A stretch of DNA of 64,000 bases from Rudaeicoccus suwonensis (lineage in GTDB: Bacteria; Actinomycetota; Actinomycetes; Actinomycetales; Dermatophilaceae). Both the position numbers and the translations under genes were made by a program. The stretch lies in contig NZ_VIVQ01000002.1 in the NCBI RefSeq assembly GCF_007829035.1, positions 310,001-374,000 of the forward strand, read 5' to 3'. Of this stretch, positions 7,211 through 31,443 are shown one piece after another. The notes beneath the pieces are model-generated. The model did not search any database and was not told the DNA's origin. It saw only the letters and a program-made list of their open reading frames with translations. How positions within the stretch are numbered: position 1 is the stretch's first letter; each line of letters begins with the position of its first letter.

Positions 7211-7547
7211 GAAGTGGATTCCTTTGGGATGCGCAGGACGAGACAAACTCGCCAATGGGTAGGACAAATCCGGCCTGCGGGTCTCCGATTGACGGGGAGG
7301 GCAGGCTGTTGCGGATTTGCCTAAGGCCGCATCACATTCACGAGCGGGACCTTATCAGCGCGTGATCCGCAAGCGTCGGCGCTTTTCTGCTGCGGGCACT
7401 CTTTCCGAACATCCACGGCATACCCGTCACGTACGTGGAACTAGGAATTCGTTGCCAGTTGCCGAAAGGCGCGGACTCAGCATGCAGCCGAGTTTCCCCG
7501 GCGGAGCCACCCGCGCGTGCCCGGCCTCGGCCAGGTCGTGCTGAGTT
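7211..7547. other. Intergenic stretch between MFS gene and DUF222 pseudogene
   Basis: About 340 bp without a credible gene. It must carry the promoter of the MFS gene. A small perfect hairpin AAGCG-TCGG-CGCTT followed by TT lies near 7373-7386, and an A/T-richer stretch around 7430-7460. No tRNA, repeat or operator was recognised. Confidence 0.5.
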
Positions 7548-15565: not shown

Positions 15566-15608
15566 CGATATTCGACAGTGGGGCGGTGATAACCGCCCGC
15601 GCGTCGAA
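15566..15608. repeat. Palindromic intergenic repeat, copy A
   Basis: It begins CGATATTCGACAGTG and contains a strong hairpin, GGGCGGT-GATA-ACCGCCC, then GCGCGTCGAA. The right outer arm is cut short compared with copy B. It sits between convergent genes, so it may also act as a transcription terminator. Confidence 0.6.
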
Positions 15609-15628
15609 CTCCACAAGAGCAGTCCCGC

Positions 15629-15676
15629 CGATATTCGACAGTGCGGCTGTTATTGCCGCCCTGGCGTCGAATATCG
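15629..15676. repeat. Palindromic intergenic repeat, copy B (best formed)
   Basis: A 48-bp element with perfect 11-bp outer arms CGATATTCGAC and GTCGAATATCG and an inner GCGGC/GCCGC stem. It shares the CGATATTCGACAGTG start with copy A and CCGCCCTGGCGTCGAATAT with copy C at 20064-20117. It lies 21 bp after copy A, in the same gap between convergent genes. Confidence 0.65.
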
Positions 15677-24089: not shown

Positions 24090-27000
24090 ATGGCATCTGT
24101 GCAGGAACACCCCACCTTGAGGACGATTCGACGGATCGCGATCGTGAACCGTGGCGAGGCCGCGATGCGACTGATCCATGCCGTCCGGGACCACAACGCC
24201 GACGCTGCCATGACCGGCGGCGAGCCGATCCGCACCATCGCTCTGCACACCGACGGCGAGCGCGGCGCGATGTTCGTGCGCGAAGCCGATGAGGCCTACT
24301 CCATCGGACCGGCCGCGGCCCGCCCGTACCTCAACCACGACGTGCTCGCCGAAGCGCTGACGGCGACGAAAGCCGATGCGGTGTGGGTGGGTTGGGGTTT
24401 CGTCGCCGAGGATGCCGGCTTCGCCCAGCGCTGTCAGGACCTCGGCGTCACCTTCATCGGACCGAGCCCCAAGGCGATGCTCACCCTCGGCGACAAGATC
24501 GGTTCGAAGCTGATCGCCGAAGAGGTCGGGGTGCCCGTCGCGCCGTGGAGCGGTGGCGCCGTGCCGACCCTGCAGGAGGCGCACCGCCAGGCCGAACGCA
24601 TCGGTTTCCCGTTGATGCTGAAGGCCTCCGCCGGAGGTGGCGGACGCGGCATACGTGTCATTCGTTCGGCCGCCGACCTGGACGACGCCTTCGACCTGAC
24701 GCGCGACGAAGCCCTGCGCGCGTTCGGCAGCGATGTGGTCTTCCTCGAGCAGATGGTGAGCGGCGCCCGGCACGTCGAGGTGCAGGTCATCGCCGACAGC
24801 CACGACACCGCGTGGGCGCTCGGCGTGCGCGACTGCTCGGTGCAGCGCCGCAACCAGAAGGTCATCGAGGAATCCGCCTCACCGCTGCTGTCGCCCCAGC
24901 AGACCGGCGACCTCAAGGCGTCGGCCGAGCGCCTGGCTCAGGCCGTGGGCTACTGCGGCGCCGGCACGGTCGAATTCCTGTATCACCCGGAGCGCAAGAC
25001 GTTCTCGTTCCTTGAGGTCAACACCCGGCTGCAGGTCGAGCACCCGATCACCGAGATCACCACCGACACCGACCTCGTGCGTGCCCAGCTGTATGTCGCA
25101 GCCGGTGGTCGCCTCACCGGCGACAAGCCGGCCGAAGCAGGTCATGCGGTCGAGGCACGACTCAACGCCGAAGACCCGGACCGTGATTTTGCACCGTCAC
25201 CGGGCCGCATCGAACTGCTCGAACTGCCCGCCGGCCCCGGCATCCGCGTCGACACCGGGGTCAGTGAGGGCGACACGATTCCCGCCGACTTCGACTCGAT
25301 GATCGCCAAGATCATCGCGCACGGCAGCACCCGCGAGCAGGCACTGGCGCGGCTGGCGCGCGCGGTCGCCGAGACCTCTGTCGTCATCGAAGGAGGCGCG
25401 ACCAACAAGAGCTTCGTGCTCGACCTGCTCGCACAGCCGGAGGTGCTCGACGCAACTGCCGACACCGGCTGGATCGACCGGGTGCGAGCGCAGGGACGCC
25501 TTGTCGCAGAACGCCATTCGGGCGTAGCACTGATCGCCGCCGGCATCGAGGCATATGAGGACGACGAACTCGTCGAGGTCAGCCGGCTGCTGCAGACCGC
25601 GCGTGGCGGACGCCCGCAGGTGCAGCACCGGGTGGGCCGACCGATCGACCTGAAGCTGCGCGGCCGGGCCTACCGCGTCGCGGTCTCGCGCGTCGGCGCG
25701 CACCGCTTCCGGGTGACCGTGACCGCGGACGGCGAGCCCCACGTCGCAGACGTGGACGTCGAGGCCATGGGCCGCAACCGGATGCGTCTGACCCTCGCCG
25801 GTGAGAGTTTCCGGGTGCTGACCGCGACACACGGTCCGGTGCACTTCGTCGAGGTCGACGGAGTTGCGCACCGGGTCAGCCGCGACGAGGGGGGCGTGCT
25901 GCGTGCGCCCGCACCGGCGCTGGTGGTCGCCACTCCGGTGACGGTCGGAAGCCAGGTTGCTGCGGGTGCGCCCGTGATCGTGCTCGAGTCGATGAAGATG
26001 GAGACCCGGCTGGTCGCGCCGTTCGCCGCGGTCGTGCGGGAGTTGCCGGTGTCCGCCGGCAGTCAGGTCGAGACCGGCACTCCGCTGATCCGGCTCGAAC
26101 CCATCGGCGACGAAGAAGAAACGTCGAGCGACGGAGATGCTGTCGACCTCGAACTGCCTTCTGCCGAAGACGTTTCCGAGGACAAGATCGCGCGCGGTAT
26201 GGCGGACCTGCGTGCCGTCGTGCTCGGCTTCGACGTGTCCCCCGACGACGACGGCCACATGCTGCAGCACTATCTCGCAGCGCGTGACGCCGCTGCCGCG
26301 GACGGCACAGACGTCATCACCGCCGAGGTCGAACTCCTGCGCCTGTTCACCGACTTCGCCGACCTGAGCCGCAACCGGCTCGATGCCGACGAGATGCGCA
26401 ACGAGCTGCGGGTGCACAGCCCACGGGAGTACTTCCACAGCTACCTGCGCACGCTCGACCTCGAGCGCAGTGGTCTGCCGGACAGCTTCGCCGCCAAGCT
26501 GCAGGCGGTGCTCGTCCACTACGGGGTCACCGAACTCGACCGCACTCCCGAGCTGGAGGAGGCCGTCTTCCGTGTCTTCCTGGCTCAGCAGCGGTCCGCT
26601 CCGGACCTGAGCATCGTCGCGGCCATCCTGCGTCGGTGGCTGGTCGAGCCTGCACCGACCGGCGACGACGCTGCGCCGATCCGGGAAGCGCTGGACCGCC
26701 TGGCGTTCGCCATACAGGTGCGCTTCCCTGCGGCGGGTGACCTGGCGCGCAGCGTCCGCTTCCGCTGGTTCGACGAGCCTGTCGTCGCGCAGGAGCGCAC
26801 CGAGTTGCTGGCCGGCGTTCGCAGCGAAATCGACGCGCTGGCAACCGAACCCAACACGATCGACCGTGCTGAGCGAATGAACGCGCTCGCTGCGATCCCG
26901 GAACGCATCGTCAGCTTTCTCGCCGACCGTCTCGAGCACGGCGTGCCCACGAGCGAGCCGCTGCTGGAGGTGCTGATCCAACGGCACTACCGGGAGTATG

Positions 27001-29654
27001 AGCTGACGCACCTACGGTCGGTGAGCAGCGACAGCCGTCCCGCCGCGATCGCCGACTACGTGCTCGACGCGCGCCCGACGCATCTGGTGTCCACCCTGGG
27101 CCGGTTCGACGAGCTGACCCCGGACAGCAGTCTCAGCAGATCACTGACCCAGCTGGTCAGCGATCGCGCCGACGATCACCAGGCAGTCGTCGATCTCTAC
27201 GTGTCCTGGCCAGGTATGCCGGAGGACCCTGCTGCCGCGTCCGCCCAACTCGCACGCGCGCTGTCGTCGCTGCCCGTTGCCGGCGATGTGCGACGCATCG
27301 CTGTCGGCGCCTGCCCCGGTGGTCAGAGCCCGGTCAGCTACTTCACTTTCCGGCCGGACTCGTTCGGGGAGGACGTACCCGTCGACGAGTCGGGTGCGCT
27401 GCACGAGGACGAACTCGTGCGCGGTCTGCACCCGATGGTGGCGCGCCGACTCAACCTCTGGCGGCTGCGGGAGTTCGACATCACCCGCGTCGACGCGCCC
27501 GAGGATGTCGTCATCTATCACTGCGTCGCCAAGAACAACCCCGCCGACCAGCGCCTCGTCGCGATGGCGCAGGTGCGCGAATTGACAGTGGTGCGAGATG
27601 AATTCGGCGCGGTGGCGTCACTGCCGCAGATTGAGCGCACCATCGCCAACTGCGTCGAGGGCATCCGCCGCGGGCGGGCCGCGCTGCGGTCGCCGAAGGT
27701 CCACCTCGACATGAACCACGTCTGGGTGCACATCTGGCCACCGATCGACGCCGAGCTCGATCAGTTGACCGCGCTGAAGCGCGGCATCGCCCCGTTGACC
27801 GTCGGCGCAGGCATCGACGAGGTCGTCGCGCAGGGCCGGGTCGCGGCCGCGGACGGCGCGGTCATTCCCGTGGCGGCACGGTTCTACTACCAGCCGGGTG
27901 CCGGTGTGCAGTTCCGCGTCGAGGAGCCACCCACCGAATTGCTCTCTCCGCTGGACGATTACGCACAGACCGTGCTGCGTGCACGGCGGCGTGGCACGGT
28001 CTACCCCTACGAGTTGCAGGCGATGGTCGCCGGCACTGACGGCACCATCGTCGAGCACGACCTCGACGACACCGGCCGCCTCGTTCCGATCGACCGCGCC
28101 CCCGGTCTGAACTCCGTCGGCATCGTCGTGGGCGTCGTCACGACACCGACTGCGCTGCACCCGGAGGGCATCACCCGCGTCATACTCTGCGGCGATCCGA
28201 CCAAGGCACTCGGTGCGGTGTCCGAGGGCGAGTGCTCGCGGATCATCGCCGCGCTCGACCTCGCCGACGAGCTGGGAGTGCCGGTCGAGTGGTACGCCCT
28301 GTCGGCCGGCGCCCGCATCTCGATGGATTCGGGCACCGAGAACATGGACTGGGTCGCCAAGGCGCTCAAGCGGATCGTCGAATTCACCCAGGCGGGCGGC
28401 GAGATCAACGTCGTGGTGGCCGGCATCAATGTCGGCGCTCAGCCCTACTGGAACGCCGAGGCGACGATGCTGATGCACACCCGCGGCGTGCTGGTGATGA
28501 CTCCGGACAGCGCGATGGTGCTCACCGGCAAGCAGTCGTTGGACTTCTCCGGTGGCGTGTCGGCCGAGGACAACTTCGGCATCGGCGGCTACGACCGCGT
28601 CATGGGTCCGAACGGGCAGGCGCAGTATTGGGCGCCGGACCTCAAGGGCGCCCGTGACCTGCTGATCCAGCACTACGACTACACCTATCGCGCCAGTGGT
28701 GAAGAGTCGCCACGGTCGGCGATCAGCAATGACCCGATCGACCGTGACGTCACGGTGATGCCGCACGACGTGCCGGACAGCGACTTCACCACGATCGGTG
28801 AAATCTTCTCTGCCACAACGAATCCCGACCGCAAGAAGCCGTTCGACATACGTACGGTCATGCGAGCGCTTGCCGACCAGGATCAGCCGACGCTCGAGCG
28901 GTGGGCGGACATGGCCGATGCCGAGACGGCAGTGGTCTTCGATGCCCGCCTCGGTGGGCAGCCGGTGTGCATGCTCGGGATCGAGTCGCGCTCGGTGCCG
29001 CGTCGCGGGTTCCCGCCCACGGACGGACCAGAGACCTACACCGCAGGCACGCTGTTCCCCCGCTCGTCGAAGAAGGCCGCGCGGGCCATCAACGCCGCCA
29101 GCGGCAACCGGCCGGTCGTCGTGCTGGCGAACCTCTCCGGATTCGACGGCTCGCCGGACTCGATGCGCAACCTGCAGTTGGAGTATGGCGCCGAAATCGG
29201 CCGGGCCATCGTGAACTTCGACGGCCGCATCGTGTTCTGCGTGATCTCGCGCTATCACGGTGGCGCCTTCGTCGTGTTCTCCAAGGCGCTCAACCCGCGT
29301 ATGACGGTGCTGGCGATCGAGGGCTCCTACGCCTCCGTGCTCGGCGGCGCGCCCGCTGCGGCGGTCGTCTTCGCTCGCGACGTCGACGCGCGCACTGCGG
29401 CCGACCCCCGGGTGGCCGATCTGGCGACGCGGTTGCGTGAGGTACCCCAGGCCGAACGCGCTTCCGTCGCAGCGGAACTCACCGAGGTGCGCACCGCCGT
29501 GCGCGCGGAGAAGATCGGTGAGGTGGCGGCGGAGTTCGACGGCATCCACAACATCCACCGGGCAGTGGAGGTCGGATCCGTCGACGCGGTCATCGAGGCC
29601 TCGGAGCTTCGTCCGCGCATCATCGGTGCGCTGACTGCCGCGCCGCGCGACTGA
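24090..29654 (+). CDS. Single-chain multidomain acyl-CoA (acetyl-CoA) carboxylase
   Basis: A 1854-residue biotin enzyme that fixes bicarbonate onto an acyl-CoA. Biotin carboxylase covers about 1-460 (RIAIVNRGEAAMRLIHAVRD, ATP-grasp loop KASAGGGGRGIRVI, EVNTRLQVEHPITE). The biotin carrier domain has its biotinyl Lys636 in VLESMKMETRL. A central helical domain (about 690-1170) resembles the central region of eukaryotic ACC. Carboxyltransferase N- and C-halves follow (about 1200-1830; GARISMDSGTEN, GNRPVVVLANLSGF, ISRYHGGAFVVFSKALNP). The architecture is that of bacterial single-chain carboxylases called YCC. ATG 24090 follows GGGAGG. The acyl substrate cannot be told. Separate AccA-type subunits presumably exist elsewhere. 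Confidence 0.88.
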   Translation: MASVQEHPTLRTIRRIAIVNRGEAAMRLIHAVRDHNADAAMTGGEPIRTIALHTDGERGAMFVREADEAYSIGPAAARPYLNHDVLAEALTATKADAVWVGWGFVAEDAGFAQRCQDLGVTFIGPSPKAMLTLGDKIGSKLIAEEVGVPVAPWSGGAVPTLQEAHRQAERIGFPLMLKASAGGGGRGIRVIRSAADLDDAFDLTRDEALRAFGSDVVFLEQMVSGARHVEVQVIADSHDTAWALGVRDCSVQRRNQKVIEESASPLLSPQQTGDLKASAERLAQAVGYCGAGTVEFLYHPERKTFSFLEVNTRLQVEHPITEITTDTDLVRAQLYVAAGGRLTGDKPAEAGHAVEARLNAEDPDRDFAPSPGRIELLELPAGPGIRVDTGVSEGDTIPADFDSMIAKIIAHGSTREQALARLARAVAETSVVIEGGATNKSFVLDLLAQPEVLDATADTGWIDRVRAQGRLVAERHSGVALIAAGIEAYEDDELVEVSRLLQTARGGRPQVQHRVGRPIDLKLRGRAYRVAVSRVGAHRFRVTVTADGEPHVADVDVEAMGRNRMRLTLAGESFRVLTATHGPVHFVEVDGVAHRVSRDEGGVLRAPAPALVVATPVTVGSQVAAGAPVIVLESMKMETRLVAPFAAVVRELPVSAGSQVETGTPLIRLEPIGDEEETSSDGDAVDLELPSAEDVSEDKIARGMADLRAVVLGFDVSPDDDGHMLQHYLAARDAAAADGTDVITAEVELLRLFTDFADLSRNRLDADEMRNELRVHSPREYFHSYLRTLDLERSGLPDSFAAKLQAVLVHYGVTELDRTPELEEAVFRVFLAQQRSAPDLSIVAAILRRWLVEPAPTGDDAAPIREALDRLAFAIQVRFPAAGDLARSVRFRWFDEPVVAQERTELLAGVRSEIDALATEPNTIDRAERMNALAAIPERIVSFLADRLEHGVPTSEPLLEVLIQRHYREYELTHLRSVSSDSRPAAIADYVLDARPTHLVSTLGRFDELTPDSSLSRSLTQLVSDRADDHQAVVDLYVSWPGMPEDPAAASAQLARALSSLPVAGDVRRIAVGACPGGQSPVSYFTFRPDSFGEDVPVDESGALHEDELVRGLHPMVARRLNLWRLREFDITRVDAPEDVVIYHCVAKNNPADQRLVAMAQVRELTVVRDEFGAVASLPQIERTIANCVEGIRRGRAALRSPKVHLDMNHVWVHIWPPIDAELDQLTALKRGIAPLTVGAGIDEVVAQGRVAAADGAVIPVAARFYYQPGAGVQFRVEEPPTELLSPLDDYAQTVLRARRRGTVYPYELQAMVAGTDGTIVEHDLDDTGRLVPIDRAPGLNSVGIVVGVVTTPTALHPEGITRVILCGDPTKALGAVSEGECSRIIAALDLADELGVPVEWYALSAGARISMDSGTENMDWVAKALKRIVEFTQAGGEINVVVAGINVGAQPYWNAEATMLMHTRGVLVMTPDSAMVLTGKQSLDFSGGVSAEDNFGIGGYDRVMGPNGQAQYWAPDLKGARDLLIQHYDYTYRASGEESPRSAISNDPIDRDVTVMPHDVPDSDFTTIGEIFSATTNPDRKKPFDIRTVMRALADQDQPTLERWADMADAETAVVFDARLGGQPVCMLGIESRSVPRRGFPPTDGPETYTAGTLFPRSSKKAARAINAASGNRPVVVLANLSGFDGSPDSMRNLQLEYGAEIGRAIVNFDGRIVFCVISRYHGGAFVVFSKALNPRMTVLAIEGSYASVLGGAPAAAVVFARDVDARTAADPRVADLATRLREVPQAERASVAAELTEVRTAVRAEKIGEVAAEFDGIHNIHRAVEVGSVDAVIEASELRPRIIGALTAAPRD

Positions 29655-29718
29655 AGGTGGAGCGCCGGAGCGGGCGGTGTATGCCGCTCCCCCGGCGCCG
29701 CCTCGTAGCGTCAACGTG

Positions 29719-29809
29719 GTCCGCTCGCGCCGTGACGTGTCATCGATTTCTCCGAGTGACGTCGAGGTCTCGACGTCACTCGGAGAAGTCGATGACACCC
29801 TGAGCGGAC
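29719..29809. repeat. Very large near-perfect inverted repeat between convergent genes
   Basis: The arms at 29737-29765 and 29770-29798 are 29 bp each, complementary except one T/G position, with a GGTC loop. Further out, GTCCGCTC (29719-29726) pairs with GAGCGGAC (29802-29809). It lies between the carboxylase stop and the 3' end of the convergent lipoprotein gene and could terminate both. Its length is far beyond an ordinary terminator, so a MITE-like or solo-inverted-repeat origin is possible. Confidence 0.65.
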
Positions 29810-29822
29810 TACGACGGAGCCC

Positions 29823-30353
29823 TCATGCTCCTGGCGGTGCGAAATCTGGGCACGACCCACCGCGTGCCGCGACGGCGATCCCGCTCTTCGCGGTGACCTC
29901 GGCTGCGCCTCGCGATGTCTTGTAGGCGACATAGAAGCCGTCGGACCAATGGCTGAAAACATTCGGATCCTTGGCGCGGACTTCCAGCGCCACCAATGCC
30001 ACTCTGCCGGCGCCCACCACTGTCGGCGCATTGCCCGGCTTTGCCCACGGAGTACCGATTCCCTGCGGAATCTCTGCCTTGGGGACTGGAATGACCCACC
30101 AGTCGACGACCCTGAACGGGCTGGACTTCGGCATGGACACGCCGGTTATATGCGCAGTCAAACCGGTCTCGTTCTTGATCTCGATCGGCAGGAACGTCTG
30201 CAGTCCGTTGGCCAATGCGGGAGTGCACGCGGCATCCCCGCTTTCGTCGACCATGCCGCCATCCAGGGCGACCCTGGTCGAGGCGCGGCATCCGGTGACC
30301 GCTGTCAGCGTGAGAACGACTGCACCCGCCGACAGCATTCGAGTGACCTTCAT
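29823..30353 (-). CDS. Lipoprotein of unknown function
   Basis: A 176-residue secreted lipoprotein. The signal peptide ends in the lipobox LTAVTGC (Cys22). The mature part is beta-rich with two further Cys (DAACTPALANG and GGSCPDF near the C-terminus), which may pair. ATG 30353 follows AAGGGGGAG; upstream in-frame starts lack a site. I do not recognise the family. It is divergent from the DyP peroxidase gene, with about 160 bp between. Confidence 0.68.
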   Translation of the reverse strand: MKVTRMLSAGAVVLTLTAVTGCRASTRVALDGGMVDESGDAACTPALANGLQTFLPIEIKNETGLTAHITGVSMPKSSPFRVVDWWVIPVPKAEIPQGIGTPWAKPGNAPTVVGAGRVALVALEVRAKDPNVFSHWSDGFYVAYKTSRGAAEVTAKSGIAVAARGGSCPDFAPPGA

Positions 30354-30516
30354 GAGCGCGCTCCCCCTTGCGGCATACCTGACGGGTATGTCGAAACACC
30401 CGTCACCGGTGACCAGATCATGGCACGCGCGCGGCCTCTCGCACGCGACTTCGGGCTCACTGCCGTAATGTCGTCGAGGGCCCACGTGGCCCGCGATGCA
30501 CACGAGAGGAAGCTCC

Positions 30517-31443
30517 ATGGTCGTTCAGCAGATCGTCGCCCGACCGACCAGGACAGCGATGTTCCTCGTCCTGACGGTGGCGCCGGGCAGCGAAGGCGCA
30601 GTACGCGAGTTCATCACCAATGTCTCCGGCCTGACCCGCACCGTGTCCTTCCGAGTGCCCGACGACCAGCTGATCTGCGTCACAGGGATCGGTGCACACC
30701 TGTGGGACCGCATGTTCGACCTGCCACGTCCGCGCGGCCTGCACCCCTTCCAGCCGATCGTCGGCGCCAACCACACCGCCGTGTCGACGCCGGGTGACCT
30801 GTTGTTCCATCTGCGCGCAGACAGCCTTGATCTGTGTTTCGAGCTGGCACATCTGATCACCGACGCGCTGAAGGACCACGTGACAGTGGTCGACGAAGTG
30901 CACGGCTTCAAGTTCTTCGACGAACGTGATCTGCTCGGATTCGTCGACGGCACAGAGAATCCCGAGGCCGACGACGCCGTTGCGGCCGTCACGATCGGCA
31001 ACGATGACGAGGCGTATGCCGGTGGAAGTTACGTCATCGTGCAGCGCTATCTGCACGACCTCGACGCCTGGAACGCCCTCTCGACCGAGGAGCAGGAACG
31101 CGCCATCGGCCGTCGCAAGGTCAACGACCTCGAAATCCCTGATGCGGACAAGGCTGCTGATGCGCACATCGCGCTTGCGTCGGTGGACGACGCCGATGGC
31201 AACCAGCAGCAGATCGTGCGCGACAACATGCCGTTCGGCCGGATCGGTGCCGACGAGTTCGGCACGTACTTCATCGGTTACGCCAAGGACCCTGCCATCA
31301 CCGAACGGATGCTGCATCGCATGTTCGTCGGCGAGCCTCCCGGCACCTCCGACCGGATCCTCGACTTCTCCACCCCGCGCACCGGCAGCCTGTACTTCGT
31401 GCCCAGCGCCGCCTTCCTGGATGAGGACCACCCAGCAGTATGA
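30517..31443 (+). CDS. Dye-decolorizing (DyP-type) peroxidase
   Basis: A 308-residue heme peroxidase of the short, class B-like DyP type. The GxxDG motif is GFVDGTENPEADD with the catalytic Asp144. The proximal heme His is probably in KAADAHIALASVDD, and the distal Arg in QQIVRDNMPFG. Peroxide-dependent oxidation of dyes or lignin-like phenols is typical; physiological substrates are uncertain. There is no Tat signal, and the C-terminus (AAFLDEDHPAV) lacks a clear encapsulin-targeting tail; no encapsulin gene is near. ATG 30517 follows GAGAGGAAG. Its stop overlaps the start of the next gene (ATGA). Confidence 0.9.
   Translation: MVVQQIVARPTRTAMFLVLTVAPGSEGAVREFITNVSGLTRTVSFRVPDDQLICVTGIGAHLWDRMFDLPRPRGLHPFQPIVGANHTAVSTPGDLLFHLRADSLDLCFELAHLITDALKDHVTVVDEVHGFKFFDERDLLGFVDGTENPEADDAVAAVTIGNDDEAYAGGSYVIVQRYLHDLDAWNALSTEEQERAIGRRKVNDLEIPDADKAADAHIALASVDDADGNQQQIVRDNMPFGRIGADEFGTYFIGYAKDPAITERMLHRMFVGEPPGTSDRILDFSTPRTGSLYFVPSAAFLDEDHPAV

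Follow-up and report, generated by a model that had tools for sequence, protein, structure and literature searches.

The question raised by this locus is what a near-perfect palindrome may be doing between the 3' ends of two convergent genes of Rudaeicoccus suwonensis. The palindrome lies at 29737-29798 of the window, as the whole stretch of 64,000 nucleotides that was analysed is called here, and the features around it are collected in Table 1. The explanation that appears probable is that of a bidirectional 3'-end hairpin without a U-tract (I-shaped), which would serve as a terminator, as a protector of RNA 3' ends, or as both, and which is one of three dispersed copies.

Table 1. Features of the locus, in window positions unless a contig is named, and the similar palindrome of another genus
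Feature	Position	Strand or setting	Basis
Fused acyl/acetyl-CoA carboxylase, 1854 aa; 3' end faces the hairpin	24090-29654	+	ORF; Pfam
GC-rich bulged hairpin directly 3' of the carboxylase stop	29655-29703	+	Fold of the 108-nt joined flanks; coordinates read off the fold
Outer stem, left half (12 pairs, two G-U)	29716-29727		RNA folds
60-bp palindromic unit, recurring at C2:424988-425047 (copy 2) and C2:559209-559268 (copy 3)	29738-29797		Repeat scan, folds, genome search
Outer stem, right half, 10 nt past the stop of the facing gene	29801-29812		RNA folds
Facing gene, up to 231 aa	29823-30518	-	ORF; gene call of the coding-potential script, 29823-30353
60-bp palindrome resembling the unit, genome G047	C61, within 7315-7396 (L187, about 1512-1571)	3' of one gene, followed by a co-directional gene	Covariance model R1

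An inverted-repeat scan found two arms (29737-29766 and 29769-29798) that are 97% complementary and 2 nt apart, and no other inverted repeat of comparable quality is present within the window. In RNA, the inner stem has 29 pairs, one of them U-G (29737-29765 with 29770-29798), closed by a loop of 4 nt (29766-29769). The scan and the fold thus bear out the initial annotation, which had described 29-bp arms with a single T/G difference and a 4-base loop. The outer pairing that it gave as 8 bp also exists, but is larger, with 12 pairs. It was further proposed that the T/G change still pairs in RNA and, therefore, suggests selection on RNA structure. The difference indeed forms a U-G pair in the plus-strand (carboxylase) transcript, but a second fold shows an A.C-type mismatch in the minus-strand one. 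Since the pairing is confined to one transcript, the difference alone does not speak for selection. The region 29700-29830 folds with -82.8 kcal/mol, against -47.3 ± 3.7 in shuffled sequences; none of 200 shuffles was as low, and the fold lies 9.6 standard deviations below their mean (z about -9.6). The unit, a palindrome on both strands, can fold not only as RNA but also as single-stranded DNA. Rfam gave no match above the gathering score across the window, and a tRNA/tmRNA search found none.

When the arms were sought elsewhere in the genome (3.83 Mb, 7 contigs), a check that the initial annotation had itself proposed, six arm matches were obtained, all within three palindromes. The inner 60 bp occur in three copies, all of them on one contig of 640 kb, C2, at 339738 (the window copy), 424988 and 559209. 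In the alignment, the similarity among the copies does not extend past the 60 bp, and the flanks are unrelated. Out of 28 pairs compared across the three copies, 18 are invariant, and 4 have changed on both sides with the pairing kept. Paired cells make up 96.4% of the three-copy alignment, versus at most 49% when the partner is slid by 1 to 3 columns. These two-sided changes are better evidence of selection on the stem than the T/G difference, but arm correction as the DNA replicates could produce them as well, and the basis is three sequences. The 60-bp unit is not unique, and its diverged copies are best read as members of a dispersed palindrome family that is small and lineage-specific.

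A palindrome formed by chance was rejected, since none of the 200 shuffles folds as well and chance predicts 0 arm matches for the window. Nothing was found in favour of chance or an assembly artefact, and either deserves next to no credence, as the presence on one contig of diverged copies with compensatory changes already excludes it unless all three are assembly errors.

All three copies stand at gene 3' ends. Copy 3 begins 17 nt after a stop codon, and the next gene is on the same strand. Copy 2 overlaps the stop or last codons of an ORF, which runs into the palindrome up to its stop, while two homologues stop shortly past a shared RHWWP motif. Copy 2 thus seems to have supplied its ORF with a new stop codon. 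Homologues of this ORF turned up in 4 of 57 other genomes; the suggestion is a weak one, because the C-terminal comparison covered just the two best of them.

At the window copy, the ORFs agree with the convergent arrangement noted initially. The carboxylase has Pfam matches to PF02786, PF02785, PF00289, PF00364 and PF01039, which cover biotin carboxylase, biotinyl and carboxyltransferase domains. Pfam gave no family for the protein of the facing gene; to a reader, without a family match, the middle of its translation reads like a secreted lipoprotein. Beyond it lies a Dyp-type peroxidase gene (30496-31443), and the listed start of this ORF overlaps the start of the divergent facing ORF. The 60-bp unit is 25 nt from the stop of the facing gene and 83 nt from that of the carboxylase. 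When it is removed in silico, the flanks fold into two hairpins, the bulged one directly after the carboxylase stop and the outer stem; the joined-flank fold was equalled by 2 of 300 mononucleotide shuffles. The bulged hairpin is probably the carboxylase's own 3'-end hairpin. The inner hairpin may, therefore, be redundant for the carboxylase, being 83 nt from its stop with a nearer hairpin at hand. The simplest history for this one locus would be that each gene first had its own hairpin, and that the 60-bp unit came later into the loop of the 12-pair hairpin of the facing gene.

Either strand has 1 T in the 8 bases flanking the stem, a scan for U-tract terminators did not pick the hairpin, and a canonical (L-shaped) terminator was rejected on this ground. 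An I-shaped terminator is a different matter. According to passages of a review (PMC12288462), most mycobacterial genes use such U-less terminators within 50 bp of the stop codon, and passages of a Streptomyces Term-seq study describe structured 3' ends lacking U as well as two-way ends (PMC8269248). Neither 'I-shaped' nor 'bidirectional' turned up in the passages of PMC8355165. The present hairpin resembles the I-shaped terminators of mycobacteria and other high-GC bacteria in being a strong U-less hairpin soon after stop codons, of a kind common throughout the genome of a high-GC actinobacterium. The distance of about 50 nt holds for the facing gene, copy 2 and copy 3, and the carboxylase stop falls outside it. 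The hairpin also differs from these terminators in that its 29 pairs are extreme for the sizes seen here, its sequence recurs at three sites and its role in termination is a prediction.

Long hairpins at gene ends are a common feature of the sampled part of this genome. The sample scanned was contig C2 (with the first 10 kb of the window counted once) together with ten 20-kb stretches of contig C1, 839,727 bases in all. A long hairpin was defined by a stem score of 14 or more and a loop of 2-10 nt; the score is gapless and misses bulged hairpins such as that at 29655-29703. This gave 58 long hairpins, against 3 in first-order Markov sequence of equal size. With C2 joined, the count is 60, as one hairpin had been cut by a stretch border and the threshold for pruning overlaps differs. 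Gene calls for placement, here and in the related genome G047, came from a simple coding-potential script. Seventeen of the 60 lie between convergent genes, 28 between co-directional and 1 between divergent ones, 11 are in genes and 3 at edges, which corresponds per 100 kb to 43 (convergent), 33 (co-directional), 3 (divergent) and 1.6 (in genes). Many begin about 10-30 nt from a stop codon, and their tails are not U-rich (mean best 2.3 T in 8). Among the intergenic spaces of C2 that are 60-600 nt long, a stem of at least 14 is found in 10 of 44 spaces between convergent genes, in 11 of 162 between co-directional genes and in 1 of 84 between divergent genes (Fisher test, convergent versus divergent, P = 9e-5; co-directional versus divergent, P = 0.06).

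A similar picture was obtained in relatives, where the initial annotation had advised comparing the locus. For the carboxylase, 80 loci, mostly from named actinobacteria, were fetched, and 79 were used, one being too short. In 52 of the 79, a stem of at least 10 follows the carboxylase stop, compared with 0 of 79 coding controls; the median of the best stem is 13 versus 7, and the longest reaches 23.6. The sequences of these stems are unrelated to the unit. In G047, a genome of another genus of the family, 275 kb were sampled and 32 long hairpins were found, one of them with 32 perfect pairs. Their placement is alike, as 11 lie between convergent genes, 12 between co-directional and 3 between divergent ones, while 2 are in genes and 4 at edges. 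Fourteen of these 32 have a similar counterpart elsewhere in the sampled 275 kb. The giant hairpins of G047, several of which belong to repeat families, include those at L207:18168-18234, L206:6327 and L210:16884, 17991 and 18390. As a caveat to the gene-end reading, divergent spaces hold some long hairpins in both genomes (1 of 60 and 3 of 32). The hairpin had been described as much larger than needed for termination; its size is real, but gene-end hairpins of 18-32 pairs are ordinary in its own genome and in the related genus. The window hairpin heads the size range of a common class, as far as the genome was sampled, and it is not exceptional in kind, because large and even repeated gene-end hairpins are usual in this group.

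These comparisons bear on whether the palindrome might act as DNA, either as a cruciform or as a site where proteins bind to organise the chromosome, its place at gene ends being secondary. The symmetry on both strands, the folding as single-stranded DNA and the presence of three copies on one contig would all be in keeping with such a role. Most other long gene-end hairpins, as well as those after the carboxylase in relatives, are unrelated in sequence, however; shape and position are kept and not the sequence, as a binding site would need. A DNA-level role is, therefore, regarded as very improbable.

The two-way gene-end hairpin can be pictured as follows. Polymerases arriving from the carboxylase gene on the plus strand or from the facing gene on the minus strand would transcribe the same palindrome, so that a very stable stem, lacking a U-tract, should form in either nascent RNA. 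Such a structure would stop or strongly delay the polymerase, acting as an I-shaped intrinsic terminator, perhaps together with NusG or Rho. The hairpin remaining at the 3' end would block exonucleases, and long antisense read-through would be prevented. Its inner 60 bp would be a copy of the lineage-specific palindrome, sitting in the loop of the older 12-pair hairpin of the facing gene. The bidirectional terminator named in the initial annotation is thus favoured by where the hairpin lies and by how hairpins are distributed across the genome and the clade, while the stop itself is something that we infer.

Protection without termination has to be weighed at this point. Rho may end transcription farther downstream and exonucleases may trim the RNA back to the hairpin, or RNase III may cut it; 3' hairpins can be leftovers of processing instead of stop sites. 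RNase III could be expected to accept a stem of 29 uninterrupted pairs, and the lack of a U-tract is also in line with such a role. In passages of the same review, about 54% of M. tuberculosis ends are Rho-dependent, the dominant class, and 2-4% are canonical intrinsic ones (PMC12288462). The need for a U-tract is disputed, as the review reports U-less terminators to be common in mycobacteria and also cites work in which the mycobacterial polymerase needs a U-tract (PMC12288462). A purely protective role fits less well with the enrichment being strongest between convergent genes, where a two-way stop would be most useful, although this hardly separates the two, because protection also favours gene ends. 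Owing to the work on the U-tract and the weight of Rho, a role in protection or RNase III cleavage without termination is kept as a possible, if doubtful, explanation, with the minor share of the probability.

As to its origin, the palindrome had also been thought to be a possible relic of a MITE; it would then represent two 30-bp terminal inverted repeats lying back to back and mobilised in trans by a transposase. The copies are indeed several and dispersed, and their ends are defined: the boundaries are sharp at 60 bp, the flanks are unrelated, and all three copies lie on one 640-kb contig. The stop codon that copy 2 seems to give its ORF and the position of the window copy inside another stem point in the same direction. 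The initial annotation held that multiple copies with target duplications would indicate a mobile element. Copies were found, but no clear target duplication was seen at any of the three when the boundaries were varied by 4 nt either way; the best candidates, chosen from many allowed boundaries, were 4-5 bp exact or 5/6. No transposon with the same ends was detected in the own genome, where every arm match is in a palindrome, or in 185 other genomes of the family. A RAYT (Y1 transposase, PF01797) is absent from the own genome, the search being positive in 5 of 14 control genomes, and the GT(A/G)G head (GTAG/GTGG) was not seen by eye in the three-copy alignment. With no clear duplication, no matching insertion sequence and no RAYT, the unit is not a classical MITE or REP. 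A MITE-like relic is considered rather unlikely, and it partly concerns origin and not function, so that it overlaps with the two-way gene-end hairpin.

The arms, allowing up to 3 mismatches, are present in none of the 185 other family genomes (the own genome alone of 186) and in 2 of 396 genomes sampled from the order, namely the own and one other. The single outside match (1 in 395, at 3 mismatches) was taken as chance and adds nothing to the relic explanation. The exact central pattern was found neither in viral contigs nor in genome contigs, from which the own genome was possibly left out. Weak DNA matches in three family genomes (E about 5e-4) looked, on reading, like coding or short chance matches. 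A phage origin was set aside, with no phage match, and so was a plasmid origin, as the one weak match (26 bases, E 0.8) was not taken as related. A short match at C1:2446332 (L011) was a coding overlap and not the end of an insertion sequence.

A covariance model of the three copies (R1) was run on 38 genomes, the own and 37 others, and matched 6 of them, own genome included, at E 0.01 or better. The sole convincing place among the 37 is the 60-bp palindrome of G047, with 51 bits; 18 of its 30 arm positions are identical to the unit, in register. Such identity has P about 2e-5 to 6.5e-5 for one comparison, whereas the palindrome was picked from 37 genomes by a model that rewards sequence, and the likeness is, therefore, only suggestive of a wider, fast-diverging family. 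Five matches in four other genomes (23-27 bits) were dropped as coding-like, with scores at background level. Within 275,201 further bases of G047, there was no second strong match.

Known repeat families offer partial parallels. The unit is a dispersed stem-loop repeat in that it is repeated, similar among copies, conserved in fold and intergenic, with a low copy number and with copy 2 overlapping the last codons of an ORF. SLS families are likewise repeated, foldable intergenic units with conserved shape and diverging sequence, and the novel families of one survey have 9 to 164 copies (PMC2267715), in contrast to the three copies and the nearly perfect palindrome here. REP elements with RAYT transposases are extragenic palindromes dispersed between genes (PMC2817692); they differ from the unit in their GTAG/GTGG head, their Y1 transposase and their tens to hundreds of copies. 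None of the papers found on U-less terminators, GeSTer, Streptomyces 3' ends, actinobacterial extragenic palindromes and Intrasporangiaceae palindromic repeats describes the unit in its title or displayed abstract. MITEs, ERIC and Correia/NEMIS elements are short, dispersed inverted repeats, and some are RNase III substrates. The unit shares the first three traits with them, but lacks an internal region, a clear target duplication and a detected parental transposon.

Other repeats are present in the same genome. A second dispersed palindrome family, with the core TTGCCGCCCNGGCGTCGAA and the shape CGATATTCGACGC...GCGTCGAATATCG, was matched 17 times when up to 2 mismatches were allowed, whereas the reversed control gave 0 matches. 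Its places include C2:189477, 190198, 190261, 304281, 325653 and 428749, and also positions 15566-15676 of the window, where the inverted-repeat arms span apparently two units. On contig C1, four near-identical 57-bp repeats lie about 150-220 bp apart (C1:119309-119891; L153, genome G000), two of them scored as hairpins, and a 36-bp hairpin is identical at the distant places C2:614212 and C1:1503003.

It may be speculated that the giant palindromes of this actinobacterial family are portable terminators. In this view, 60-bp units would originate and multiply within a lineage, settle at gene ends, as here in the loop of an older hairpin, take over from or strengthen the hairpin already present, and stay near-perfect through arm correction or selection. 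This proposal is held to be unlikely; if true, the repeats of G047 and its palindrome resembling the unit would represent the same process in another lineage.

As a single feature, the window hairpin is ordinary, and the interest lies mainly in palindromes that seem to spread as units. If the reading as a two-way, U-less gene-end hairpin is right, three copies of one palindrome, together with the many unrelated ones, would make a natural test series for termination without a U-tract in high-GC bacteria. The same series would also serve the question of how gene-end hairpins arise and spread.
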